Shown: positions 1-15,021 of the stretch, piece by piece
How positions within the stretch are numbered: the stretch's first letter is position 1
Layout: every line of letters begins with the position of its first letter
NCBI RefSeq assembly: GCF_000331305.1
Contig: NZ_KB217478.1
Coordinates: 6,970,317 to 7,034,316, forward strand
DNA length: 64,000 nucleotides
Direction: 5' to 3'
From: Calothrix sp. PCC 7103
GTDB taxonomy: Bacteria; Cyanobacteriota; Cyanobacteriia; Cyanobacteriales; Nostocaceae
The notes under the pieces: generated by a model
Database searches by the model: none
Seen by the model: only the letters and a program-made list of their open reading frames with translations
What the model was told of the DNA's origin: nothing
Translations under genes and position numbers: made by a program

Positions 1-81
1 AGAGACACGTCCGGAATATGATTTGGGTACAAAAAATGGTAGAAAGTATAATTGGCCCCTCTACCACAACTCAATTAAATA

Positions 82-995
82 ATGAATACCTTTGATTATA
101 TACAAAAGTACCCATCGCGCGCCAAGCAAGTGTTAGGGATTAGTTATGAGCAATTTACTGACCTTGTAAACTGTGCGAAGCAGTATCATGAAGAAGAACA
201 GTTTAAACTTGAACAAAGCAAAGTTAGAATACATCGTCCCGGAGGTGGACGCAAAGAAATCTTGTCTATTCCAGAACAAGTATGTTTGTGCGTATTTTAT
301 CTGAGACAAATACCCACATTTGAAGTTTTGGGAATGATATTTAATATATCGAAAACTACAGCGAATGATATTTTTCATTATTGGAGACAAATATTACGTA
401 ATATTTTGCCTTCTAGTTTATTAGAACAGGTTGAAGATAAGGAAGGAGATTTGATGATTGTACAAGAGATATTAACGAATTATAAGTTGCTAGTTGATAG
501 TCTGGAACAGCCGATTGACAGACCATCCGATAACAAAACGCAAAAAAAGTTTTTCTCTGGAAAGAAAAGACAACATACTATGAAAAGTCAAATGGTTTCC
601 TTACCAAAAGGAAAAGATATAATTGATATGAAAGTAGGTTTTCCTGGTCCAACAGCGGATATTAACTTATATAGGGAACAACAGAATAATTTTAGTAACG
701 ACCAAGAATTTGAAGGAGATAAGGCTTATCAAGGTGGTCAAAATATTACCACTCCTCATAAAAGAAAAAGAAACAAGAATTAAATGAAAAACAGAAAGAA
801 GAAAATAAAGTTTTATCTAGCAAACGTATCTTTGTGGAGCATTTGATACGTGTTGTTAAAATTTTTCAAGTTGCGTCACAGAGATTTAGATTAAATGCGA
901 ATGTTTATAACGAAATAGTTTTGTTAGTTTGCGGTTTAGTAAGATTACGAATAGGAGCTTTTGTTTTACCGTACAACATAATTCATATTAATTGA
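82..995 (+). pseudogene. IS5/HARBI1-type DDE transposase, split by a -1 frameshift
   Basis: The first frame (82-783, 233 aa) has an N-terminal helix-turn-helix region (about residues 60-100) and the start of a DDE_Tnp_4-type catalytic core: 'VDSLEQPIDRPSD' near residue 138 carries the first Asp, 'PGPTADINLY' the second. The frame stops at 781-783 in an A-rich stretch. Reading continues in the -1 frame to a TGA at 993-995 with 'KRIFVEHLIRVVKIF', the usual place of the catalytic Glu, and a normal C-terminus. Two frames therefore make one complete transposase. I saw no canonical slippery heptamer, so decay is more likely than programmed frameshifting, but the latter is not excluded. Terminal inverted repeats were not identified. 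It borders the accessory cluster downstream. Confidence 0.75.
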
Positions 996-1139
996 AAATT
1001 GTGTTTGCGTCGGTACTAGATGATTTATTTTTCTGCTCTAAACTATCAGTAACTATATCAAACCCTGATTTCCACGTTGGAACAAAATCTGCAAGGAGTG
1101 GTCTCAAAGCCTTGTAGATAGAGGCTTGCAAGTTTTCGG

Positions 1140-1565
1140 ATGGGTCTAAGGGAAAACGAAATCAGGATTTTTCTACAAAACTGTGTTTATGTCTTTCAAA
1201 TAAACCAATGTTCAATCTGTGATTGGCTACTAACTGCGGAAGTTCACTACCTAAACTCACAAAAACTAGAAACTCAAAAGCGAGAATTACCGATTTGGGT
1301 TTTTTGGTATCGTCCCTCATGCGAGACAATTTCTCAAGCTGAAGAGTATCTTCAAAACTCGACATCTTACCAGTTAGGTTTACTGCTTTATTTGCAAGAA
1401 CCTCCTGTAAACCTAACTCCCGAAAGTTCTTTTCCCTCTCCTAAACATTTGATAGTGAGAAAATTATCAGATTACCAAGTTGGAGGGTTTTTGCCAATAG
1501 TTAATTACCTCGCGCGCATAATTCAAGTATGGATAAGCAATTTTGGAGACAGCTACAACAGCTAG
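1140..1565 (+). CDS. Hypothetical protein, first gene of the helicase/PLD cluster
   Basis: A 141-residue open frame that I do not recognise. It is rich in Leu, Gln and Trp/Tyr and has no clear signal peptide or membrane segment. An in-frame TAG lies only 18 bases upstream of the ATG, so it cannot extend much further. Its last 37 bases overlap the start of the helicase gene (1529) in another frame, which suggests translational coupling. It could instead be the N-terminal part of a once longer protein now frameshifted against the helicase frame. No function can be assigned. Confidence 0.5.
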   Translation: MGLRENEIRIFLQNCVYVFQINQCSICDWLLTAEVHYLNSQKLETQKRELPIWVFWYRPSCETISQAEEYLQNSTSYQLGLLLYLQEPPVNLTPESSFPSPKHLIVRKLSDYQVGGFLPIVNYLARIIQVWISNFGDSYNS

Positions 1566-3097
1566 TTTTCCAGTCGAATTATCAAACCGAAGTTAAACAA
1601 GCTGTTTGGGAAAACCTAGTACAACTAGCAGCTAACCCAACTTTACCATTTCAGCTGATTATCGATACGATTAGTAAAAATGCTGGATATGCTATTAAAC
1701 ACCGTTCCTCACTTAATTTTCCTGCGGTTCAACCAAATATTTCCTTGAGTCGAAAGCAGCAAACCGCTTTGGAGCTAAGTTTATCAAACACTCCAGTAAC
1801 TTTGGTTTCTGGTATACCAGGGAGTGGTAAAACTCGAATTGCCAGAGCTTTAGCTGATGTTGCAAATAAACACCAAAAAAGCACCCTCCTTTTGACACAT
1901 TATCAAGCTTCAACAGCAGCTTTTCGCGACTTAACAAAATATAGCTTTTTCCTTTCCCAACCTCAAGACAACCGTTCGTCTGAGGAACTACAGCAGCAGC
2001 TAGCGGTTTCCTCGATGAGTTATTTACCTTTACATTTACTCCCAGATAAGCAACTTGAACAACTACGCTGTCGAAAAAAATTAGAATCCTGGTATCCGAC
2101 TATAGAAAATGAATCGTATCAGCGACTAGTTGAACTTTTACAGCAAGCGTTTCCTGAGTTGTGCAAAGCCAGAATAGAGGTTTTTGCCTATCGACTCAAG
2201 CAGTTGGCGCCACTGCTGCAGGAAAATTTAAGTTTAAGCCAGCTATACACAAACCTGTCTGGGCAGGGAGTTAACGAACTAGCGTCCATTTTAATCAGCA
2301 CGAGCAAAATACCAGTTATTGGTACGATTACGGAATTTTTCCAACTTCAACAGCATCAAGAGCAAAGTACTTTTGATTTAGTAATTGTCGAAGAAGGGCA
2401 TTATTTAAACTGGTTTGAGTTAATATTTTTAGCTGGTATTACGCAAAAGCTCGTTTTATTCGGAGATATTATCTCTCCTTATCAAATAGATAAAACTATA
2501 TTTCCAAATGGTTCTAGCTTTAACTGGTTCGCAAAAACTCTACTGCCAAATAATCGCTTTCATCTTACAGAACAGTATCGTCTCCATCCAAATATTGCCG
2601 CACCAGTTTACAGCACTATATCTGATGAATGGATTTTAACTAATAGACCGCGCGCCTTACCTTATTTACCCCAACTGCCTAATCGCTTAATTTGGCAGGA
2701 TATATCCAATCTTGATTTTACCGAAACCAGCCAAATTTGGAAATTTTTGCAAACTATTTCCTCTGAAAGAATACCGCAAATAGGCATTATTACCTATGAA
2801 AAGTCTCACAGCCATTTACTTAAACGTCACTGTCCGCAAGAATTTTCACAAATACTAATTGGTACTGTAGCAGAATGGGCAGGGCAAGAGCGAGATATTA
2901 TTATTGTCTGTTTTATGGATAGCAAAAACATTGTAACAGAAGATTTAAATGTTTCATTAACCAGAAGCCGAGATTATTTAATTTTATTTGGTGATTATGA
3001 TTATTGGTGGAAAAATACTTTATTGCGTCCTTTACTGGCTTGTCATGAACTACAACGTATTCGCACGGTAATTCTAAATGAACAAATACAAACTTAA
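1529..3097 (+). CDS. UPF1/DNA2-like superfamily 1 helicase
   Basis: This 522-residue protein carries the full SF1B motif set: Q-motif-like 'LSRKQQTALE' (73-82), Walker A 'GIPGSGKT' (95-102), motif II 'VIVEEGH' (285-291), motif III 'LFGDIISPYQ' (310-319), motif IV 'EQYRLHPNI' (348-356), motif V 'GTVAEWAGQERDI' (445-457) and motif VI 'LNVSLTRSRD' (473-482). Such enzymes translocate on or unwind nucleic acid using ATP. The Walker B Asp is replaced by Glu (VEEGH instead of DEA-), which is unusual. It is compact, about the size of the bare helicase core. The start overlaps the preceding gene by 37 bases and the end overlaps the PLD-type gene by 20 bases, so the genes are probably one transcript. 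The motifs make the helicase call firm; the biological role is inferred from context only. Confidence 0.85.
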   Translation: MDKQFWRQLQQLVFQSNYQTEVKQAVWENLVQLAANPTLPFQLIIDTISKNAGYAIKHRSSLNFPAVQPNISLSRKQQTALELSLSNTPVTLVSGIPGSGKTRIARALADVANKHQKSTLLLTHYQASTAAFRDLTKYSFFLSQPQDNRSSEELQQQLAVSSMSYLPLHLLPDKQLEQLRCRKKLESWYPTIENESYQRLVELLQQAFPELCKARIEVFAYRLKQLAPLLQENLSLSQLYTNLSGQGVNELASILISTSKIPVIGTITEFFQLQQHQEQSTFDLVIVEEGHYLNWFELIFLAGITQKLVLFGDIISPYQIDKTIFPNGSSFNWFAKTLLPNNRFHLTEQYRLHPNIAAPVYSTISDEWILTNRPRALPYLPQLPNRLIWQDISNLDFTETSQIWKFLQTISSERIPQIGIITYEKSHSHLLKRHCPQEFSQILIGTVAEWAGQERDIIIVCFMDSKNIVTEDLNVSLTRSRDYLILFGDYDYWWKNTLLRPLLACHELQRIRTVILNEQIQT

Positions 3098-4799
3098 ATA
3101 TAAATTTTCAGGTACTTTCTATCGTCAATCTCTTAATGATGTACAAACAGCAAAAATATCCTTAAATGATTTGATACAACAAGTACAAGCTGTTGCAATA
3201 AAAAACAATTATCGAACACCCGAACGATTACATAAGTCTTTCGGATTAGATTTTCTTCCACTACCTACTTTAATTGAAGTATTAAGGAAAACTAATAATA
3301 CAGATTTCACAGATTCGTATGAGATAGAGACACAACAAATTTTACAGCAAGCTACCATCTATAATTATCAATTTACTACTACAAATTTCAGCTTAAATTT
3401 AACTCCCGAAGACCCTCAAATTCCTGACATTTGGTCAGACGATAACTTATCACAGCAGGGAACTTATGAAATTTATTTAGATAGCAGTTCTTACGCTGGT
3501 ATACCTGAAAACATAGTCAAGCATATTTGGGAAGAAGCGGGGGAGGTTATATCAACTAAGCAACCAACAGAAATTATTCACCAAGCATTACAAGCCTTAG
3601 ATTACAATAATTTTCGCTGCTTTAAAAACAGATTTTTAGAAATTTGGCTGGAGTTAAAAGATTTATCCCCTGATATTAGAAGCGCGATTACCTTTTTTCG
3701 GCAGCAACAGTTGAATCAGCAACCTGACTTATCGCTTCTCTCAGCTAATACACAATTACTGGTTAACCAGTATATTTCTAAGAACAACTTACCAACAACT
3801 AGTCATGAACAACTTTTACAATTGCAAGCTGATGAAGCTAAACAGGGTAGTTCAGCATTAGCAATCGGTAGAAACAAACGTTCGTATATCGAAGAGATTA
3901 TTACTAATGCTCAAGAATTTTTACTCGTCTCTAGCTATATTATTGAAGACGAAAGCATTACCGAACTACTAAGTCGTAAATCGCAAGAACTTACTAAGGG
4001 AGTTTGGGTATTAACTGACTTACGAGATGAGGTAATTGATTATTTAGATACCCAAGTCGCTGTAAGCCCTAATTTGAACAATGTCTTTCGACGCGCGAAT
4101 GAAAAAAAGCGAGTTTGTTTGCAAAAACTTTTAGATGCTAATATTCCTATCCGTAGCGGTACTTTTCACCTTAAAACTGTAGTATCAGAAAAGTCTGCTT
4201 ATCTAGGTTCTTGCAATTTGACCTGTGGTAGCTTAAACCGAAATTTAGAAGCAGGAATTATATATAATAACCTAACGGTTCGTAATGCTATCATCAACCT
4301 TTTTCAACACTTTTGGCAACACTACAGCCTAGATGATGTTATACCTGCTACTAATTATGATGGATTTTACCTCCGTTCGGTTCAAAGATTTGATTTAGGA
4401 AGTATTAAGCAGTGGAAATCTGACTTTTTACTAACTCCCCAACAGTACTACCGTGATTTAGTAGAAAGTTTGAAAACATTTCATGGCGATGTGCTTATCT
4501 ATAGCCGTAGTTTTCATCCAAGTCAAGAAATTTTAAAATTATTAGATAAACCTTCAATTAAATTAAAAGTTTTTGTAGATTCTCAGTTTCCTCCAAAAAT
4601 ATCACCCCTAGGTTGTAAGCATCAACTTATTGATAATTTTCATGCAAAAGTGACATTACTTGGAAATCAGCTTGCTTATATAGGTGGTGTTAACTTCAAC
4701 TTTAAGCCAAAAGCTTTATTTTTAAAAGATGCCATGTTCAAAACTACAAATCCAGAAATCATTACTCAAATTCGGCAAAAGCTATCAACCTCTAACTAA
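3078..4799 (+). CDS. Double-HKD phospholipase-D-like protein (putative nuclease)
   Basis: This 573-residue protein has two PLD-type active-site motifs: 'HLKTVV...GSCN' (His364, Lys366, Ser378, Asn380) and 'HAKVTL...GGVNFN' (His522, Lys524, Asn539). The family includes phospholipases, nucleases and phosphotransferases that act through paired HxK histidines. The canonical Asp of HxKxxxxD is not evident in either motif. The first 260 residues are unassigned, with a helical stretch around 145-260. There is no signal peptide, so it is probably cytoplasmic. The ATG lies inside the helicase gene (20-base overlap), and the next gene starts 24 bases after the stop. A nuclease partner for the helicase is the simplest reading, as PLD-type nucleases accompany helicases in other defence systems, but this is inference. 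Confidence 0.75.
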   Translation: MNKYKLKYKFSGTFYRQSLNDVQTAKISLNDLIQQVQAVAIKNNYRTPERLHKSFGLDFLPLPTLIEVLRKTNNTDFTDSYEIETQQILQQATIYNYQFTTTNFSLNLTPEDPQIPDIWSDDNLSQQGTYEIYLDSSSYAGIPENIVKHIWEEAGEVISTKQPTEIIHQALQALDYNNFRCFKNRFLEIWLELKDLSPDIRSAITFFRQQQLNQQPDLSLLSANTQLLVNQYISKNNLPTTSHEQLLQLQADEAKQGSSALAIGRNKRSYIEEIITNAQEFLLVSSYIIEDESITELLSRKSQELTKGVWVLTDLRDEVIDYLDTQVAVSPNLNNVFRRANEKKRVCLQKLLDANIPIRSGTFHLKTVVSEKSAYLGSCNLTCGSLNRNLEAGIIYNNLTVRNAIINLFQHFWQHYSLDDVIPATNYDGFYLRSVQRFDLGSIKQWKSDFLLTPQQYYRDLVESLKTFHGDVLIYSRSFHPSQEILKLLDKPSIKLKVFVDSQFPPKISPLGCKHQLIDNFHAKVTLLGNQLAYIGGVNFNFKPKALFLKDAMFKTTNPEIITQIRQKLSTSN

Positions 4800-4823
4800 T
4801 TAAATTTTAAACTATACACAGCT

Positions 4824-7181
4824 ATGACTCAATTATTAAATTTAGAATCTTGTAGCGAATGCTATCAATATACCCTTCTTTTACAACAATCACCTCAAGA
4901 CCTTATCCCTAAAGCGGGTCTGCCAACAGCGTACAAAAATTTTTTGAGAACTTATGCTCATACAGCTTATCTACCTCAACCTGTCACATGCCAAAATTTG
5001 AGTCAGAATCTAATTATAAATAGTAATCTACTCAAAAGCTTAACGATTGGGTGCCAATTAAATGAAGGAAGCGAACGATTATTCATTATTCGCGATACAG
5101 TTGACCTAATGACTTTACTCGCAGGAGGATTTATAAGCAATCAAGAAAAATACCTCTACGCAAGTGCTTATTACTACTGGAATAATCTTTCTCAATTATC
5201 CAAACAAAACATCAAGCATCCTTTGGTTTTTATTAATTTAGATAGTTTTGACAATGAAGGCTTAATTCCTATTTCCTTTGCTCAACATCAAAATTCTCGT
5301 CATCCTGTTCCTATTCTGGATACAAGAAAAGAAAAAATTAGTTTTAAATTCGACTCAGTTAAAACTTATGAAAGTATTCTTGAAGCTATTGCTAAGACAA
5401 TTTTGAATGATAATTTCAGCGTATGCGCCAATGATTATAGTACAATTTATCATCTTGTACAGTATTTACAAAAAACTTTATTGCTTCAACACATTCCAGC
5501 AAATATAGCCCAGAAGCAAATTTTTAATTTCATTATTGAAGTTCTCTATCAAGGCAAGGTTTTTTATAAACAAGCAAATATTAATCTCTACGCTATTCAA
5601 CAAATTATTCTTGACGCTCTCGATATCAGGTGCCTTCAAAGTTTAGCTACTAACAACCCGCAATTTCAATTTATTTTACTAACTCAGTATCCTGTTATTG
5701 CTCATTTGCAAACAAAACTGCCAGATTTTACTGTTTTACCGTCCAGTTTACAAGAATTTAGTCATATTTGGCAGCAAAAACAAATTCATCATTTTCCATT
5801 GTTTGGTTTTTACCTTGATACAATTGAATTTGCAATTAATATTAACGGAAAACCGGAGTGGATTAGAGTTTCTAACTCTGAAGAAAATCTCATATCTTAT
5901 GAAGGTGAAAAAAGAAGTTTTATCGGTGCTATTCCTAGTACGGGGCAAAAAGAGTTTGTGATTAAACAAGGTATCACAAGTGTTTGCTTACCAATTCGAG
6001 TTAATGGAAAAGATTACTGTTTAAACGAAGTTGCTCAAGATTATTATATTGAAGTTGGTAAACGTACTACTTCTCATGATATAAAAGTCAGTATTGAATT
6101 TCACCTGCTCCCAGATTCTGCGCCAACACTTGTAGTGATAGACTTAGAGGATAACTCTAGCCTAAAAACTGAATTAAAACCACATCAAATCATAACTTAT
6201 TCTTATATTCAATCACAACGTATTTCTAACGTTCGCTATAAGCAATCAGAACAACAAATAGGTAGATTACAAGTGAATGTTGACAGTTTACATTCTTCGC
6301 TATCAACAGTTAGTAGAAAAGTCCAAAACTCACAGGTTAATTATACTGTATTATCGGCTGACTTAAAAGCTGCTTACAATCTACTCAACAAAGGAAGTAG
6401 AAACATTGATCCATTATTATTTATTGATAATCAAAGCTCGACATTATCAGTGGTGAAATTACAAGAAATTTTGAAGGAAAATATTATTTTAATATCTGAA
6501 TATCTTTCTAAGTGGATAAATACTTCTTTCTCAAATAGGAGCGCTAAACCAAACGATTTAGAGAAAACAATACAAAATGCAGTTATACTAATAGGTAAAA
6601 CCTATCATCTGACGCCTATTTCAAATGCTAAAATTTTATTTGCACCATTAGTAATACAACAATCGGTTAATTGTGGTTTTTGGGGTGAATATCTCAAAAT
6701 GTTGACAAGAATTGCAATTACAGAAGATTTACAGCGATTATATTTTGACTATTTCTTCCAACAATATAGAAATCAAGCGGCTTATAGGTTAGATAATTAT
6801 TTATGGGGATACTGGCGTATTCTACTTTGGTATGCTGATTTTAAGCAGCTACATCAATGGCTAGATTATAAGCAACACTTTAAGCTGATTCTGGGTTATT
6901 TGGCGCAAACTAATGAAAGTCAATTGAAAGACCCTTATAAAATCAATGCTTTTGCTTGTTTAATTTATCTGATGACATTTCGCGAGTTTGATTCGGAATT
7001 TTGTCAACCGAATTCAGAAGAAATAAAATTAGCGCTACAAGTTATTGAACTGTTTAAAAATGACACGAGTATTAAAATACGCCAAGTTAGTGACACTAAG
7101 TTTTTAAATGTTTACTTTGCTGAACTAGTTGCTGGAATTGCTAGTGAGTCTGACATGGTTAATCTTCTAAGTGCTAGTTGA
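4824..7181 (+). CDS. Large uncharacterised protein of the helicase/PLD cluster
   Basis: A 785-residue protein without a motif I can name. Residues 1-320 look mostly helical. Residues about 325-460 are beta-rich ('LPIRVNGKDYCL', 'VSIEFHLLPDSAPTL'); this part weakly recalls beta-domains of Hsp70-like proteins in bacterial conflict loci, but I would not assign it on that basis. Residues 460-530 may form a coiled coil and the C-terminus is helical and aromatic-rich. No transmembrane segment or signal peptide is obvious. It is the last gene of the run and starts 24 bases after the PLD-type gene. The cluster has very few GGCGCC sites compared with the rest of the window, consistent with horizontal acquisition. 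Confidence 0.65.
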   Translation: MTQLLNLESCSECYQYTLLLQQSPQDLIPKAGLPTAYKNFLRTYAHTAYLPQPVTCQNLSQNLIINSNLLKSLTIGCQLNEGSERLFIIRDTVDLMTLLAGGFISNQEKYLYASAYYYWNNLSQLSKQNIKHPLVFINLDSFDNEGLIPISFAQHQNSRHPVPILDTRKEKISFKFDSVKTYESILEAIAKTILNDNFSVCANDYSTIYHLVQYLQKTLLLQHIPANIAQKQIFNFIIEVLYQGKVFYKQANINLYAIQQIILDALDIRCLQSLATNNPQFQFILLTQYPVIAHLQTKLPDFTVLPSSLQEFSHIWQQKQIHHFPLFGFYLDTIEFAININGKPEWIRVSNSEENLISYEGEKRSFIGAIPSTGQKEFVIKQGITSVCLPIRVNGKDYCLNEVAQDYYIEVGKRTTSHDIKVSIEFHLLPDSAPTLVVIDLEDNSSLKTELKPHQIITYSYIQSQRISNVRYKQSEQQIGRLQVNVDSLHSSLSTVSRKVQNSQVNYTVLSADLKAAYNLLNKGSRNIDPLLFIDNQSSTLSVVKLQEILKENIILISEYLSKWINTSFSNRSAKPNDLEKTIQNAVILIGKTYHLTPISNAKILFAPLVIQQSVNCGFWGEYLKMLTRIAITEDLQRLYFDYFFQQYRNQAAYRLDNYLWGYWRILLWYADFKQLHQWLDYKQHFKLILGYLAQTNESQLKDPYKINAFACLIYLMTFREFDSEFCQPNSEEIKLALQVIELFKNDTSIKIRQVSDTKFLNVYFAELVAGIASESDMVNLLSAS

Positions 7182-7370
7182 TTTTTACTATAAATTACAA
7201 ATGCATTTTAAATGCTTACGGATTCAGGTGAACTATTGCCTCTCAATTTATATAAACAAACGTTCGTATATAAAAGAGATGATTAGTATGCTATTGTTGT
7301 TGGGCTTCGTTCCCCAGCACCAACGACAAAAATCCAAAACCTGGTGGTCTATGTCATAAATTTTGGTGAA

Positions 7371-7400
7371 TGTAGAGACACTCCCTATCGCGTCTCTACA
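7371..7400. repeat. GTAGAGAC-family inverted repeat
   Basis: Arms TGTAGAGA (7371-7378) and TCTCTACA (7393-7400) enclose a short loop. Related copies lie at 11626-11677, 16501-16528, 26250-26277 and 55344-55375. This is an interspersed palindromic family of the kind common in filamentous cyanobacteria. Confidence 0.75.
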
Positions 7401-7471
7401 TTCCCAGAATTTATGAGTCGGCGCCAACTCCTCAAAATTAATGACATGGAGTACTACAGAGTATAAAAAAA

Positions 7472-7529
7472 TGTGAACCAATGGTTCACAAACTCCTGTT
7501 TTACCAAATGGGAACCAATGGTTCCCATT
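7472..7529. repeat. Two matched palindromes with a compensatory difference
   Basis: The palindrome at 7472-7490 has 9-base arms around one base (core GTGAACCA-A-TGGTTCAC). The second at 7507-7529 has 11-base arms around one base (core GGGAACCA-A-TGGTTCCC). They differ by a T-to-G change in the left arm matched by A-to-C in the right, so pairing is kept. They lie between convergent genes and could serve as a bidirectional terminator or a protein-binding site. Confidence 0.7.
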
Positions 7530-7548
7530 CAAAGAAGCGAATGCGATA

Positions 7549-9297
7549 TTAATCTTTTTCAGGAAAGGTTTGTACTTTGCCGTCTGGACTAAATACTGCG
7601 CGGATACGAACTGATTGTCCGTTACGGTTGGGCGATACAAACTGTTCACCTATTAATGGCATTCCTGTGCGGTCAACGAAATCACGCGCTGCTTTGCCTA
7701 ATGGTAAAATTCGCTCGATAGAACCATCAACACCAACTAATAAGCTGTATTCTAAAGTATCCTTTAAACCTTGTGGGGGTTTCCAGCTAGCACGCAATAC
7801 GTTTCTTGCTTCTGATATCTGAGGTGTATCAAAAATTGTATTAGTAGCTGTGGTGGTGCTTCTATTACTAGCTGTGGCAATTCTTCCAGAGCCATCACGA
7901 GCTTCACGTAAACGGTTTAATAGAGAACCATCTGTTCCACCTGGCGCCCGGTTTGCACGTGGGGTAGCAGGACGCGGTTCATTATATGGTGTTTCTAGGG
8001 CATCGAGAGAGGGTAGTCCAGTTGTTGGAGATATTGGTGATATTGAAGATATTGGAGGTATTGTTGAAGGTGGTTTACTGGTGCCGATATTTCCTCTTGC
8101 AGAAGTATTATTTCTGGGTTGATTACTGCTCCGCGCTTGTTGAGTAATATTTGGTTGCAGAGCAATTGAACCTGGTGAGGTTAAAATAGGCGATGTTTTA
8201 CCCGTTGGTGTTGTGGGTAATCTTGGATTTGTTAGCTCAGGAATAGTGAGTGTGTTTCCTGATGGGATGCTGGAGGGAAAACTAAAGTTTGCACCGGGCT
8301 GCGATGTTGTTGGCGCCCCTAAATTTGGACGTTGTGTAGAGTTTGGAATTGGAAGATTACCAGCAATACTACCTGGAGGTAAATTTGTTGTTGGCAGCGT
8401 GCTTGTATTTATATTAGCGCCTGGTGTTGGAATTGCACCTGGTATGGGTAAATTGGTACTGACTGCTCCGGGGGGAGGGGTAGGTAATCCTGCTGCAATT
8501 GGTGGTAAAGTGTCGAGTGGTGTCGCTAGAAGTCCTGGTGTTGCTGCGACTGTTGGCAATGGAGTTTGTAAGGCTTCACTTTGAGTGTTTGCAGCAGTTT
8601 GTTGAGATTGTTGATTTTGACGTGCGCGGTTTGCGTACTGTAATGTAAAGGGTGTTAACCCTAACGCTAGGGCAAATACTGCTGCGATTGGCGCCCAATT
8701 CGGAATTGCAGAAGTACGACGGCGTGTATTGTTAAGGTTAGGTAATGCCAAAACATCGGCTGAATACTCGTCTAAAGCAGATGCTAAATCGAATAATTGT
8801 AAAAGGCTTAATTTAACAAGTCCTCCTGTGGCTGGAGCAAGATTTCCAAGATATAAATTATGTGATAAATAACCGCTGGGTTCTATATATATCTCAGATT
8901 GAGTAAATTGGGTATTATTGGTGTTGTAAGGTTTTCCTAAAGTCGAAAGCCGCGTATCAGTATTATGAATATCTCGTGGTGCCTCAATAGCGTCTAAGAC
9001 TTGGGTCGCATCACCACTATTGTTATAGCTTTCCCAAAATTTATCTGGTTGAGTGTGTAAGAACTGCTGGACATAAGCCGTCACTGCTGCACACAAAGCT
9101 TCCAGTTGGTCGCGATTGCCTCGAATTGCAATCCTCTGGTCTTCTGGTAGTCGCGGGTCATCCAAACGAAGCGAAAAGCTCAGTTGCTTGAGGACTGATT
9201 TACCCATCCACTGTGATAATGGCGAGTTTTGCGCGCTTACTTCAAGAGTGCAAGTCGGTGGTGTATAGCGACGGATGACAGAATTTGATAGAGGCAT
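7549..9297 (-). CDS. DUF4335 domain protein, membrane-anchored, Pro/Thr-rich
   Basis: This 582-residue protein belongs to the cyanobacterial DUF4335 family. Residues 1-190 form the conserved N-terminal domain, beginning 'MPLSNSVIRRYTPPTC'. A single membrane segment follows at about 203-222. A long low-complexity linker rich in Pro, Thr, Asn and Ser covers about 230-470, and a conserved C-terminal region of about 100 residues follows ('LRASWKPPQGLKDTLEYSL'). It starts 42 bases after the DUF3038 gene and is probably cotranscribed with it, a pairing I know from other cyanobacteria. The function is unknown. Long open frames on the other strand here are shadows of the biased linker. Confidence 0.8.
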   Translation of the reverse strand: MPLSNSVIRRYTPPTCTLEVSAQNSPLSQWMGKSVLKQLSFSLRLDDPRLPEDQRIAIRGNRDQLEALCAAVTAYVQQFLHTQPDKFWESYNNSGDATQVLDAIEAPRDIHNTDTRLSTLGKPYNTNNTQFTQSEIYIEPSGYLSHNLYLGNLAPATGGLVKLSLLQLFDLASALDEYSADVLALPNLNNTRRRTSAIPNWAPIAAVFALALGLTPFTLQYANRARQNQQSQQTAANTQSEALQTPLPTVAATPGLLATPLDTLPPIAAGLPTPPPGAVSTNLPIPGAIPTPGANINTSTLPTTNLPPGSIAGNLPIPNSTQRPNLGAPTTSQPGANFSFPSSIPSGNTLTIPELTNPRLPTTPTGKTSPILTSPGSIALQPNITQQARSSNQPRNNTSARGNIGTSKPPSTIPPISSISPISPTTGLPSLDALETPYNEPRPATPRANRAPGGTDGSLLNRLREARDGSGRIATASNRSTTTATNTIFDTPQISEARNVLRASWKPPQGLKDTLEYSLLVGVDGSIERILPLGKAARDFVDRTGMPLIGEQFVSPNRNGQSVRIRAVFSPDGKVQTFPEKD

Positions 9298-9339
9298 GGC
9301 AAAAAATGCAATGGGGACTAAAATCTCGCAATCTAAAAT

Positions 9340-9945
9340 CTAAAATTTTGTTGAACGGTCGATAAGTGTAAGCCAAAGGCGTCGATGTCCACCAGGACCG
9401 CTGTAAAACAGTAAATCAACTAGCAATTTCAGCGCCAAGCGGGTGAGCAAATCCGTAGATATTGCCTCGTCTTCCTCCATCCGCTCTTGATAGGTATTAC
9501 AAAAGGCATCAATGTAATCTCCCAATAGAGCGGAAGTATGCGGTTCACGATTTGTTTCCGCCATTTGTTCGAGTAAGCTAACAGCACGACGAATTAATTC
9601 TTGGTGCTGTTTCGCCAGATGACAAATAATCAAAACTAGCGAACGTGCTTCTTCGACATCAAGTTTTTTCCGTCCTCCCTGACCTTTACGTATCGGGTTT
9701 GACTGACGCAGGCGCCATAATGCCACACGGTCTGGAACTTTTGACTCTAAGCCTAAATCAATGGCAGCAGTGAGCATTGCTTCAGAGCCAATACCAGTTA
9801 ATGTTTCTAGCGCCAACAACACCAAATCCAATTGGGCTTTGATATTGTCCCACTCTAAGGAGTTGGGGGCACCTATTTGGGTTAAGTCCTCCCACTGTGA
9901 AGTCGGGTTTGGGGAATTGGCGGCAGGTTGCATAACTTTTAGCAT
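9340..9945 (-). CDS. DUF3038 domain protein
   Basis: This 201-residue soluble, mostly helical protein matches the cyanobacterial DUF3038 family. A central 'NPIRKGQGGRKKLDVEEARSL' region is flanked by helical bundles, and the C-terminus has 'LLVDLLFYSGPGGHRRLW'. The start may be the ATG at 9945 or the in-frame ATG four codons later, since the first residues are not conserved in character. It is the first gene of a two-gene unit with the DUF4335 protein. No biochemical role is known to me. Confidence 0.8.
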   Translation of the reverse strand: MLKVMQPAANSPNPTSQWEDLTQIGAPNSLEWDNIKAQLDLVLLALETLTGIGSEAMLTAAIDLGLESKVPDRVALWRLRQSNPIRKGQGGRKKLDVEEARSLVLIICHLAKQHQELIRRAVSLLEQMAETNREPHTSALLGDYIDAFCNTYQERMEEDEAISTDLLTRLALKLLVDLLFYSGPGGHRRLWLTLIDRSTKF

Positions 9946-10490
9946 AGGTGATCGGGCTTTATGGAACTATTGCTGTTACCCATTTTGAAACCAGACTCGA
10001 TAGCCGAAGGATTGGTTTCCTCTACTATAATGTGGGCGCCGGGACTTCGAGGACAACAGCGTTTATATGAATGTCTTAACTCTAAGACGAACAAGCGAGT
10101 CTGTAAAAGTAAACGAAGGAAATATTTATCCTGTCTTTACAGAGAGCGGAATAGGTAAGAGCCTATGCTTAGTATAAGCAAATGCCGCCACGCCGGTATC
10201 AAATTACCTACTACTTTAATGCCTGATTCTAATGTGTTAGCAACGAACAGCCAAGATTTTTTTACTGTTTAGATATGGTAGAGACCTGATTAATCCCTTC
10301 GGGAAAACTTCGTTTACACGTCTTTACAACTATGCAAAAAATGTTACTTTTGACAATCCCTTTCGGAAATATTTTTTGTCAGCAAACCATCAAAAGAGTG
10401 CTGAGTAGAGACGCGATGTTCCTCACGTCTGTAAAGAATTAATAGTTGAGATTAGTATTTAAAACTTACCACTCAGCACTTTTTACTCTT
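9946..10490. other. Intergenic space with repeat patches
   Basis: No gene or structured RNA was recognised in this 545-base space between two minus-strand genes. The left half is presumably the promoter and leader of the DUF3038 gene. The right half (10263-10480) is made of repeat pieces: GTAGAGAC half-sites near 10277 and 10405, a 'CCCTTCGGG' hairpin near 10297, and inverted copies of the AGTGCTGAGT repeat at about 10398 and 10469 flanking the patch. A 65-codon plus-strand frame at 9961-10158 has no support. Confidence 0.5.
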
Positions 10491-12914
10491 TTAAACATAG
10501 GCAATAGTTACACCAGTGCCACCATCCGCTTGTGCTGCGGGTTCCATACGTTTAACTCTTGAGTGTTGTTTTAGGTATGCATGAACTCCTTCACGAAGTT
10601 TGCCTGTACCGTGTCCGTGGATAATCCATATTGATCCCGATGCTTCTGAAATTGCTTTATCTAAAATTATTTCAGCATCAGCTACCCGTTTACCACGTAT
10701 GTCAAAGGTATTTTTGGAGGTGCGGATATTTGGAGCTTCTTGGGGTGGGGTGACGTTAGCAGGTGGTGTGTTACGGGTTGTGCGTGCTGGTGGTGGTTCA
10801 ACTTTTTGACCGTCGAGAGACTCGATATCTGTTAGTTTGACGTTCATTTTCATGATGCCAAAGCGGACATTTAATTCGCCGTCCGAGTCGGGTGCTGTTA
10901 TGACTTCGGCTGTTTGTCCTAATTTGGATATGCGAATCCGGTCGCCAACTTTTGGCATAAACCCAACTTTTGGTTTTTGCTGTTGAGGTGTTGTAAATTT
11001 CTCCGCAATTTGATTTAAATTATTTGTAGCAACTTGCGCTTCTTGTGCGGTTGGTGTTCCTTTTTGCAGGCGCCTAATAACGGTCGCAATTTCACCTTTC
11101 GCGCTCGCTATGGCTTGTTGTACTGCGACTTCTTGCTTTTCTTTTAATGATTGTTCACGTTCTTCTAAAGATGTGGCTTTTTCGGATACTTGTTTGTATA
11201 AAACTTCTGCTTGCTGTAATAACTTTTGAGCTTCAGCAGCTTTAGTTTCTTGGTGCCGACGTTGTGCTTCTAACCCAGCAATTACTGAATTTACTTCGTC
11301 GTTCGCACCTCCCATTTCTTGCTTTGCTGCTTCTACAACTTCAGGGTTTAAGCCTAAACGACGCGCAATAGCAAGTGCGTTGGAACGTCCAGGAATTCCC
11401 CATAATAAGCGGTATGTAGGTGACAGTGTGGCATCATCAAATTCTACAGAAGCATTTTCAAAACGTTCATCTTGATACTTTAACGCTTTGAGTTCGCCAA
11501 AGTGTGTGCTTGCCATTGTTAGTAATGCATGGTCGGCAAGATACTTTAGTAATGCTATCGCTAAAGCACTTCCTTCTGCTGGGTCAGTTCCGGCGCCGAC
11601 CTCATCTAAAAGAATTAATGATGATGTAGAGACGTGTAATCCGGAGGATTTCTCACAGGGATTAATCACGTCTCTACCTAATTCGTTTAAAATTCGACTA
11701 ATGCGGCGAATGTGTCCCGAAAATGTTGATAAGCTTTGCTGTAATGACTGCTCGTCACCGATATCAGCTAATATCATGTCGAACCAAGGCAACTCTACAG
11801 GTTCACGTGCAGGTACAAACATTCCAGCTTTTGCCATTAACGCTGCTAGTGCCAGAGTTTTTAAGGTGACTGTTTTTCCACCTGTGTTGGGACCGGTAAT
11901 AGTAACAACGCGAGTTTCTGGTTGTACTAATAAATCTACCGGAATTACAGCATGTCCTTGTTCGTGATGGTGTTGCCATTCTAATAAAGGGTGCCGTAAT
12001 TGTCTGAGAGTTATTTTTTCGTTGGCTTGAGTATCGATAAAGCGAGGTGGGTTTGCTTTGAGCCAATAACCATAACGCGCTTTTGCTGTTGCTAAATCTA
12101 AAGTCGTGACTATTAACAGCAATCTTTCTAAATCTGGACAAATCGCTGCTACTTGCTCGCTTAATTGGCGCCTTATTGCTTCTTCTTCTATTTCTTCCTT
12201 TCGGGTAAGTTGACGCAGTTGATTACCCATTGGTACAACTGAGTTTGGCTCAACGTATAACGTCAAACCACTCGTCGATGTGTCATGTACGATACCTGGT
12301 ATTGCCTCTTTATGGGTAGCTTTAACAGGAATTACAAATCTATCACCACGCTGAGTAATAATATTTTCCTGAAGCGCACTTGATTTGACTTGAAGAATAT
12401 TATGTAACTTTTGAGTAATTTGACTACGTGTTTTCCGCAAATCGGCACGAATATCACCGAGTTTCTGACTCGCACGGTCAGCAATTTGTCCGCGTTCATC
12501 TACACAGCGATGAATCTCTTGCTCGACTTCAGGGTAAGTTCGTAACTCAGATACTAAACTAGTTAGTACAACTAAATCCTCATGGTTATCAATTGCACGT
12601 CGTAAATTACGTGCCCCAGAGAGGGTTGTGGCAATGGCTAGCAACTCATCACCAGCTAAAATACCCTGAAGTTGTGCGCGTTCGAGAGAATTCCCAATAT
12701 CTTGAATACCCTCGAACGATAATCCACTATTCAGACGGCTTTCGAGTTCGTAGACTTCTTTGGTTTGCGCGAGTAGTTCTTCGCTCAGGTTCTTTGAAGT
12801 GGGAATTGTTAAATGTCGCGATGCAACAGCACCCAACTTAGTGGCAGCAAAGGTTGACAAATGCTGACACAGGCGTGACCATTCGAGTAGTTCTAGGGTT
12901 TCAGACTGAATCAA
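10491..12914 (-). CDS. mutS2: MutS2 family ATPase/endonuclease
   Basis: This 807-residue protein is full-length MutS2. It has an N-terminal helical core, the MutS ATPase with Walker A 'GPNTGGKT' (about residue 340), Walker B 'LILLDEVGAGTDP' (about 433), a coiled-coil stretch (about 520-620) and a C-terminal Smr nuclease domain ('DIRGKRVADAE', 'IIHGHGTGKLREGV'). MutS2 acts on branched DNA and, in some bacteria, on stalled ribosomes. An extra stretch of about 17 residues directly before Walker B (about 413-430) is encoded by an interspersed palindromic repeat (11626-11677) inserted in frame. The frame is intact on both sides, so the gene probably remains functional. Confidence 0.92.
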   Translation of the reverse strand: MIQSETLELLEWSRLCQHLSTFAATKLGAVASRHLTIPTSKNLSEELLAQTKEVYELESRLNSGLSFEGIQDIGNSLERAQLQGILAGDELLAIATTLSGARNLRRAIDNHEDLVVLTSLVSELRTYPEVEQEIHRCVDERGQIADRASQKLGDIRADLRKTRSQITQKLHNILQVKSSALQENIITQRGDRFVIPVKATHKEAIPGIVHDTSTSGLTLYVEPNSVVPMGNQLRQLTRKEEIEEEAIRRQLSEQVAAICPDLERLLLIVTTLDLATAKARYGYWLKANPPRFIDTQANEKITLRQLRHPLLEWQHHHEQGHAVIPVDLLVQPETRVVTITGPNTGGKTVTLKTLALAALMAKAGMFVPAREPVELPWFDMILADIGDEQSLQQSLSTFSGHIRRISRILNELGRDVINPCEKSSGLHVSTSSLILLDEVGAGTDPAEGSALAIALLKYLADHALLTMASTHFGELKALKYQDERFENASVEFDDATLSPTYRLLWGIPGRSNALAIARRLGLNPEVVEAAKQEMGGANDEVNSVIAGLEAQRRHQETKAAEAQKLLQQAEVLYKQVSEKATSLEEREQSLKEKQEVAVQQAIASAKGEIATVIRRLQKGTPTAQEAQVATNNLNQIAEKFTTPQQQKPKVGFMPKVGDRIRISKLGQTAEVITAPDSDGELNVRFGIMKMNVKLTDIESLDGQKVEPPPARTTRNTPPANVTPPQEAPNIRTSKNTFDIRGKRVADAEIILDKAISEASGSIWIIHGHGTGKLREGVHAYLKQHSRVKRMEPAAQADGGTGVTIAYV
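11626..11677. repeat. GTAGAGAC-family palindrome inside mutS2
   Basis: The outer arms GTAGAGACGTG (11626-11636) and CACGTCTCTAC (11667-11677) enclose nested arms TAATCC and GGATTA. It adds about 17 codons just upstream of the Walker B motif without breaking the frame. Related copies elsewhere in the window lie mainly between genes. Confidence 0.85.
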
Positions 12915-13084
12915 GGGAATCTATTATGAAAAAAAATTTTAAGTTATGTTAATAATTTTAGCGATTTTACAGCGCTATAGCTCGCGTGTGCCGATTATTT
13001 TATCTAAAGTTGTGAATGAAAGTTAGGTAGAAGTACCCCACAATTTGTTAACCTAGCTTAAACAGAATTGAGAACATAAAAGGC

Positions 13085-14248
13085 GTGGACATTCAAATAG
13101 GGCGGGGGAAAACAGCTCGTAGAGCATATGGCATCGATGAAATTGCTCTAGCCCCAGGCAATCGAACACTCGACCCAAGTTTAGCGGATACCAAGTGGCG
13201 AATTGGTAATATCGAGCGGGAAATTCCCATTATTGCCAGCGCTATGGATGGTGTTGTTGATGTGCGTATGGCTGTTGGTTTATCAAAGTTGGGTGCTTTG
13301 GGGGTTATTAACCTCGAAGGTATTCAAACTCGCTATGAAAACCCAGAGCCAATTCTAGACCGCATCGCGTCTGTTGGTAATTCGGAATTTGTAGGGCTAA
13401 TGCAGGAACTGTATGCTGAACCTATAAAACCTGAATTAATTACGCAAAGAATTAAGGAAATTAAACAGCTTGGTGGTATTGCTGCTATTAGTGCTACTCC
13501 AGCAGGCGCCAGTAAGTTTGGTCAAGTGACTGCAGAAGCTGGTGCCGATTTATTTTTTGTACAAGCAACGGTGGTATCAACCGCTCACTTATCGCCAGAG
13601 TCAATAGTACCACTAGATTTGGCAACTTTTTGCCAAGACATGCCAATGCCTGTTTTACTGGGAAACTGTGTAACTTACGAAGTTACCCTTAACCTGATGA
13701 AAGCTGGCGCTGCAGGTGTACTAGTTGGTATTGGTCCTGGCGCCGCTTGTACCTCGCGAGGTGTTTTGGGTGTTGGTGTGCCTCAAGCTACCGCTATTGC
13801 TGACTGCGCTGCTGCACGTGATGACTTCTTTAAAGAAACTGGTAAATATATACCAGTAATTGCGGATGGGGGCTTAATCACGGGTGGTGACATTTGTAAG
13901 TGTATTGCTTGTGGTGCAGATGGTGTAATGATAGGCTCACCGTTTGCACGGGCTTCTGAGGCACCGGGACGAGGTTATCACTGGGGGATGGCGACACCGA
14001 GTCCTGTTCTACCTCGTGGCACACGTATTAAGGTTGCGACTACTGGTACTTTAGAGCAAATCCTCATTGGTCCGGCTGGACTTGATGATGGAACACATAA
14101 CTTGTTGGGTGCTTTAAAAACTAGTATGGGTACTTTAGGCGCCAAGAATATTAAAGAAATGCAACAAGTTGAAGTTGTAATCGCACCGTCATTGCTTACG
14201 GAAGGAAAAGTTTACCAAAAAGCACAGCAATTAGGTATGGGCAAGTAA
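13085..14248 (+). CDS. guaB3: GuaB3 family IMP dehydrogenase-related protein
   Basis: This 387-residue TIM-barrel protein of the IMPDH/GMP reductase family lacks the CBS pair of classical GuaB, as is typical for GuaB3. The catalytic loop 'GIGPGAACTSRGVLG' carries the active Cys, and 'VIADGGLITGGDICK' plus 'GADGVMIGSPFARASEAPG' form the phosphate-binding end. It converts or senses IMP/XMP in guanine nucleotide synthesis; work on cyanobacterial GuaB3 supports an IMPDH-like activity. GTG is used as start, as the frame begins directly with the conserved 'MDIQIGRGKTARRAYG'. It is divergent from mutS2 with a 170-base shared upstream region, and a strong terminator follows at 14359. Confidence 0.9.
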   Translation: MDIQIGRGKTARRAYGIDEIALAPGNRTLDPSLADTKWRIGNIEREIPIIASAMDGVVDVRMAVGLSKLGALGVINLEGIQTRYENPEPILDRIASVGNSEFVGLMQELYAEPIKPELITQRIKEIKQLGGIAAISATPAGASKFGQVTAEAGADLFFVQATVVSTAHLSPESIVPLDLATFCQDMPMPVLLGNCVTYEVTLNLMKAGAAGVLVGIGPGAACTSRGVLGVGVPQATAIADCAAARDDFFKETGKYIPVIADGGLITGGDICKCIACGADGVMIGSPFARASEAPGRGYHWGMATPSPVLPRGTRIKVATTGTLEQILIGPAGLDDGTHNLLGALKTSMGTLGAKNIKEMQQVEVVIAPSLLTEGKVYQKAQQLGMGK

Positions 14249-14358
14249 GGTTAATAAAATTTTTCTAGCATTTGCAACAATTGCTGGAAAAATCACATAT
14301 CTCGCTTACAATGGAGGAAGCGGAGACGCATGTTTCCGTTCACTCCTCACACCACACT

Positions 14359-14393
14359 CCGCCCGGACTATATGTTCGGGCGGTTCCTTTTTT
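14359..14393 (+). terminator. Rho-independent terminator of guaB3
   Basis: The stem CCGCCCG (14359-14365) pairs with CGGGCGG (14377-14383) over an 11-base loop and is followed by a T-rich tail to 14393. It lies 110 bases after the guaB3 stop and before trxA. Confidence 0.85.
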
Positions 14394-14540
14394 AGGGTAT
14401 TGTTGAAAAAAGGGGCAAATATATAAACAAATTCTTTAATCTGATTGTAAATGTATATTCATGACTCCGAACCGGCACGTGCTTGCTGTGGTAGAATTTT
14501 CACAAAAATGAAAACAATGTAGTAGGCAAAGGTTGAAGGC

Positions 14541-14864
14541 ATGTCAGCAGCCGCACAAGTTACAGACTCTAGTTTTAAACAGGAAGTACTCGACAGCGAA
14601 GTTCCTGTTCTGGTTGATTTTTGGGCACCCTGGTGCGGTCCTTGCCGCATGGTTGGACCAGTTGTGGATGAAATTGCCGCTCAGTACGATGGACAACTCA
14701 AGGTAGTAAAAGTTAATACTGATGAGAATCCAAACGTTGCTAGTCAATATGGCATTCGCAGCATTCCTACTTTAATGATTTTTAAAGGTGGGCAAAAAGT
14801 TGATATGGTTGTCGGCGCCGTTCCGAAAACTACATTAGCTAACACTCTCGAAAAATATCTTTAG
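14541..14864 (+). CDS. trxA: Thioredoxin
   Basis: This 107-residue thioredoxin has the active site 'WAPWCGPC' (Cys at about 32 and 35) and the cis-Pro in '[10 protein letters not shown]'. It reduces protein disulfides in the cytoplasm with electrons from thioredoxin reductase or ferredoxin. The length is standard for bacterial TrxA (m-type in cyanobacteria). It is monocistronic, between the guaB3 terminator and hairpins at 14884 and 14925. The N-terminus '[16 protein letters not shown]' is normal. Confidence 0.95.
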
Positions 14865-14924
14865 ATTTGTAAAATATTTAAGGGAGGTAAAGAAGAGTGA
14901 CTTTGCCTCTCGATAAAATTTTTT

Positions 14925-14951
14925 ACGCCTTTAGTGGCCTTTGGCGTTTTT
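14925..14951 (+). terminator. Probable trxA terminator
   Basis: The stem ACGCC (14925-14929) and GGCGT (14943-14947) is followed directly by a T run. A second hairpin just upstream (14884-14909) also precedes T-rich sequence. Both follow the trxA stop. Confidence 0.65.
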
Positions 14952-15021
14952 CATTTAAATCTCTGTTGATTTTTGAGGTAAATTCAATAATTTGCCCACA
15001 AACTGTGGTTTAAAAATTCTC

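Follow-up and report, generated by a model that had tools for sequence, protein, structure and literature searches.

The cluster of genes at the beginning of the stretch of DNA analysed here (64,000 nucleotides of Calothrix sp. PCC 7103, hereafter the window) very likely represents cnuH-cnuE-cnuD, the three downstream genes of a Type III-C CoCoNuT, which is a Type IV restriction system derived from McrBC. The window copy is a damaged remnant of this five-gene antiviral system of cyanobacteria, which has already been described. In the passages that PMC11090510 (Bell et al. 2024, eLife) devotes to them, Type III-C systems are found primarily in Cyanobacteriota and include a coiled-coil McrB GTPase with an NxD motif (CnuB), a DUF2357 protein with an inactive nuclease (CnuC), a UPF1-like helicase (CnuH), a protein with two PLD domains (CnuE), and an Hsp70-like protein encoded by its own separate gene (CnuD). 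The relatives of the window cluster share this gene set, in the order CnuB-CnuC-CnuH-CnuE-CnuD, with the double PLD domain of CnuE and the Hsp70-like CnuD, and they also share the NxD motif of the GTPase and the cyanobacterial distribution. The window copy differs from them in that a deletion and the insertion of an insertion sequence (IS) have removed the GTPase of CnuB and the greater part of CnuC. Since the defining GTPase is missing, the filing of the window copy as Type III-C rests on its relatives, and we class it as a broken remnant and not as a working member. The assignment was made from gene content, gene order, the NxD motif and predicted folds, which, like the lesions, were observed directly in the loci or in the predicted models. 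We found no functional study of any Type III-C CoCoNuT in the open-licence literature searched.

The earlier note had presented these genes as an undescribed set. This did not hold: the set and the two missing genes together are the published Type III-C CoCoNuT, hence they match a named system, which is the finding that the note itself had set against its proposal. An apparently new system is thereby replaced by a named one. The broader suggestion that the cluster is probably a defence operon, containing a UPF1-like helicase together with a PLD protein, stands, by kinship, as far as the sequences can tell.

We identified CnuD matches in 17 of 388 genomes sampled from the class and in 20 of 217 genomes of the family (the window genome is in both sets). 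The 25 named genome loci were all cyanobacterial by title, the four plasmid records were all from Synechocystis, including pSYSX of PCC 6803, and two scans of viral contigs revealed no CnuD relative. Within the searches that were run, CnuD relatives are thus found in cyanobacteria only. The closest ones are about 40% identical to the window protein, and there was no match in the six genomes of the same genus that were listed. The proposed check for co-occurrence of the neighbours showed that a five-gene operon recurs around the CnuD homologues: the order B-C-H-E-D, with all five open reading frames (ORFs) full-length, was found in 18 of the 40 distinct loci. In these 18 loci the AAA_5 protein has 691 to 1025 residues and the DUF2357 protein 505 to 548. 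Pfam profiles matched AAA_5 in CnuB and DUF2357 in CnuC in all three cases scanned (L036, L021, and the nearly intact L020), and the three scanned CnuB also scored 140-150 bits against PDC-M26A, a candidate defence family of PADLOC. The coiled coils of CnuB gave weak profile matches only. CnuB was aligned for 14 of the 18 loci with intact operons, and all 14 sequences read MNED followed by E, i.e., the NxD motif. The gene-content naming and two independent tests, the NxD motif and the Hsp70 fold of CnuD (see below), agree. Type III-A CoCoNuTs resemble these loci in having an Hsp70-like CnuD module, a CnuH helicase and a DUF2357 protein. However, they fuse CnuC to CnuD and use HEPN effectors (in the passages of PMC11090510 on this type), whereas in the window and its relatives CnuD has a gene of its own and a PLD protein takes the place of the effector, with the exception of a CnuC-CnuD fusion in L091.

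The window cluster consists of four ORFs on the plus strand (1140-1565, 1529-3097, 3078-4799, and 4824-7181, encoding 141, 522, 573, and 785 amino acids), which overlap by 37 and then 20 bases before a gap of 24 bases. The four plus-strand genes of the earlier note are therefore there as ORFs, but the first is not a separate gene and the cluster runs on upstream of the window, where we found remnants of CnuB and CnuC. The 141-residue protein, taken for a gene of its own, is the severed C-terminal quarter of CnuC, the DUF2357/McrC homologue, from about residue 388 (positions 1140-1565, plus strand; tblastn and alignment). It is 37-47% identical to five intact CnuC proteins in tblastn, and its ATG lies inside the end of the IS, in a stretch common to other copies of that element. 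Neither this protein nor the 785-residue one matched any family of Pfam, NCBIfam or PADLOC at E ≤ 1.

The IS that interrupts cnuC (positions about 1-1149, plus strand; transposase PF13359/PF13613 in Pfam) is about 1.15 kb long, and its left end lies about at the edge of the window. Matching copies occur elsewhere in the genome: one on contig C1 (1153-base match, 99.65% identical) and a third over 1150 bases at 83.8%. Because of the 99.65% identical copy the insertion is probably recent, as judged from sequence. A transposase relic had been noted ahead of the cluster, and the frame is indeed interrupted (ORF 82-783, positions 1-99 of the 158 of the Pfam profile), but it belongs to a probably recent element with a nearly identical twin. 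Upstream to downstream, the order is the CnuB remnant, the CnuC remnant, the IS, and the CnuC tail. In L019, the locus of the window copy, where coordinates equal those of the window plus 15000, residues 7-111 of CnuB match at 14055-14378 and run into residues 173-380 of CnuC at 14347-14973, in a different frame. CnuB beyond residue 111, GTPase included, and residues 1-172 of CnuC have thus been lost. Pfam detects DUF2357 in the CnuC fragment just upstream of the window. Nothing else in the whole genome matches CnuB or CnuC at E ≤ 0.001, so that residues 7-111 are the only part of CnuB to match and the NxD GTPase part is absent. With this GTPase gone, and CnuC shortened and split, the full CoCoNuT pathway is very probably dead in this genome. 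The three full-length genes H-E-D are a residue, perhaps still expressed.

The cnuH gene (positions 1529-3097, plus strand) encodes a full-length UPF1-like SF1 helicase of 522 residues. The earlier description of this protein, including its VEEGH motif II, was correct: it matches Pfam AAA_12 (E=6e-12) and an IGHMBP2-family profile, aligns with its relatives, which occupy the same place in the operon, and has the Walker A motif GIPGSGKT. We no longer regard VEEGH as the mark of a special helicase, since the alignment shows motif II to be variable within the family. The helicase also matched NCBIfam NF040671, which suggested a PLuB lead, and no relevant paper was found among the matches listed.

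The cnuE gene (positions 3078-4799, plus strand) encodes a full-length protein of 573 residues, with an N-terminal domain followed by two PLD domains (PLDc_2, E=3e-16 in Pfam; alignment; predicted model). The description as a double-HKD PLD protein is right for the two domains and their HxK pairs, as H364/K366 and H522/K524 are invariant in 18 aligned sequences (the window and 17 relatives), but the Asp of both HKD motifs is replaced: across the same 18 sequences the first copy invariably has Glu there, and the second invariably Gly. The predicted model (pLDDT 78.4, pTM 0.61) matched PLD-superfamily structures in Foldseek, including the PLD3/PLD4 nucleases. According to the passages of PMC11090510 on CnuE, the protein carries a distorted, elongated wHTH at its N-terminus. 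The N-terminal domain is present in the window protein; no wHTH was found among the Foldseek matches listed, in a part of the model that has low confidence (block pLDDT 41-63 for residues 21-90). Of the five proteins, CnuE is the only one in which a likely nuclease was recognised. In the C-terminal alignment of CnuC no (D/E)xK was found by eye.

The cnuD gene (positions 4824-7181, plus strand) encodes 785 residues with a divergent Hsp70-like region, followed by a stretch of long helices and by a C-terminal part that is largely helical (AlphaFold2, Foldseek). It had been described as an unknown protein, which fits the lack of family profile matches, but its predicted fold is Hsp70-like. The AlphaFold2 model (23 sequences, pLDDT 82.5, pTM 0.61) had 35 matches at E ≤ 0.001 in the PDB by Foldseek, all 35 of them Hsp70/Hsp110 entries or complexes including them (best E=3.2e-9). 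Among the matches listed the TM-scores by query length were 0.15-0.28, identity was 6-10%, and several had a large rmsd. Given these low TM-scores and identities, CnuD has a strongly diverged Hsp70-like fold. Residues 600-785 are mostly helical in the model; the separate Hsp70-like CnuD has HEAT-like helices in the description given in PMC11090510. A sequence search of solved structures returned a single match at E=0.92, i.e., no convincing relative.

We assessed the state of the operon in 40 distinct loci (39 fetched loci and the window, after merging duplicates of the same contig). We separated lesions from contig ends by hand and found 18 intact loci, 17 with internal lesions (the window included) and five cut by contig ends. 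Since this tally was built via CnuD, loci that have wholly lost CnuD fall outside it. It excludes the weak family-search matches G552, G554, and G558 (E 3.7e-5 to 1.1e-4); L096, the one of these that was fetched, had no operon gene. Some of the frameshifts could be errors of the draft genomes, which is less likely for deletions and insertions such as those of the window, L025, L035, L059, L091, L094, and L095. The tally suggests that Type III-C operons are often broken (17 of the 35 judgeable loci, draft-assembly errors included). Frequent breakage would be in keeping with a defence that is costly or soon out of date. Homologues of the 785-residue protein lacking the helicase and PLD genes, which would have counted against the proposed association, were mostly not seen: the full-length ones lie at contig ends, to which L091 must be added.

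Three individual loci deserve a description. In L091 (G401:C1:6508000-6527999), residues 1-489 of CnuC and 204-788 of CnuD form one open frame of 1066 amino acids (10614-13814), CnuH and CnuE are absent, and CnuB is full-length; the fusion echoes the CnuC-CnuD fusion of Type III-A. In L094 (G459:C4:980000-996000) a Mokosh type I system lies between an N-terminal remnant of CnuB and a C-terminal remnant of CnuD (3130-9478), with 674 bits for MkoA, whose called ORF misses profile positions 1-85, and 233 bits for MkoB. In this locus the interior of the CoCoNuT seems to have given way to a second helicase-PLD defence system. In L025, an insert of some 1.5 kb interrupts cnuE at about 10733-12317, and the ORFs that it carries run opposite to the operon.

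The persistence of H-E-D in the window could mean that these genes act here as an autonomous three-gene system that has shed McrBC, a reading that we regard as unlikely. CnuH, CnuE and CnuD are full-length where CnuB is broken in three of the 40 loci, i.e., the window, L047 and L059, and PMC11090510 states, where it deals with CnuH-like helicases outside CoCoNuTs, that they typically pair with CnuE-type effectors. However, the IS with its 99.65% identical twin looks recent, so that intact H-E-D frames need no selection. Moreover, CnuB remnants were kept in all three loci, and contig ends excepted there was no H-E-D operon free of CnuB and CnuC among the 39 fetched loci. CnuC is broken too in the window and in L059, where (4813-12388) CnuB is down to N-terminal scraps, CnuC is damaged, and the other three genes are full-length. 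Stand-alone action of H-E-D in the window genome is possible but unsupported. A more general version, in which Type III-C systems are modular, with a sheddable McrBC half, a self-sufficient H-E-D module for RNA surveillance and defence, and loci that are repeatedly remodelled (as in the L091 fusion and the replacement by Mokosh in L094), is in our view slightly less probable still.

Two known systems that combine a helicase with a PLD protein were rejected on family-profile scores, and the Type III-C remnant remains our reading of the cluster. Mokosh type I likewise has a UPF1-family helicase with a PLD protein downstream of it, and PADLOC gave matches to MkoA (54.8 bits) and MkoB (17.5 bits), yet the Mokosh of L094 reaches 674 and 233 bits, the window helicase has 522 residues against profiles of 1112-1607, no kinase family was found among the Pfam matches listed, and the partners in the window operon are of McrBC type. 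Mokosh type I in contrast has a kinase-helicase fusion, as found in L094, and the two Mokosh genes of L094 have no McrBC or Hsp70-like partner, which makes this identity highly improbable. A DISARM-like system (drmC and a helicase) is just as hard to credit: CnuE shares a PLD-type fold with DrmC and is matched by DrmC profiles (best E=1.4e-11), but its equivalog score of 36.6 bits is far below the cut-off of 133, DrmA, DrmB and a methylase are absent among the operon proteins scanned, and no DUF1998 was listed for any protein scanned, so that the earlier note was right to set DISARM aside.

The surroundings of the window copy showed no evident defence island, which had been suggested as a possible setting. 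The ten proteins flanking it on both sides had no defence family in Pfam: nine matched housekeeping families or families of unknown kind, among them DnaJ, type II secretion, ferredoxin, DUF4335, DUF3038 and IMP dehydrogenase, and the tenth matched none. TerY-P families, a triad that Type III-C systems lack, were not found among these ten neighbours, a small and non-systematic sample.

The intact operon suggests a mechanism, in which RNA targeting, complex formation, nuclease activity and defence itself are inferences based on knowledge of the domains and on Bell et al. 2024. CnuB, a McrB-type NxD GTPase with a coiled-coil-like N-terminal part, would form a regulated motor or sensor platform with CnuC, a partner apparently devoid of a working nuclease. 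The Hsp70-like CnuD, or else CnuB-CnuC, might sense aberrant or viral RNA, its translation, or ribosome-bound material. CnuH would then remodel the nucleic acid and pass it to CnuE, which, judging from its fold and its conserved HxK pairs, may cut RNA. RNA-directed defence is also the general proposal made in the corresponding passages of PMC11090510. The word Synechocystis is absent from the main text of that paper, and a term search of the RNA-binding proteomics paper PMC12475003 for data on the pSYSX genes yielded a methods passage only. Plasmid pSYSX of Synechocystis PCC 6803 carries an intact CoCoNuT with five full-length ORFs (L036, NC_005232.1, 11348-20500), which would open this class of predicted RNA-targeting immunity to direct tests in a genetically tractable laboratory strain.
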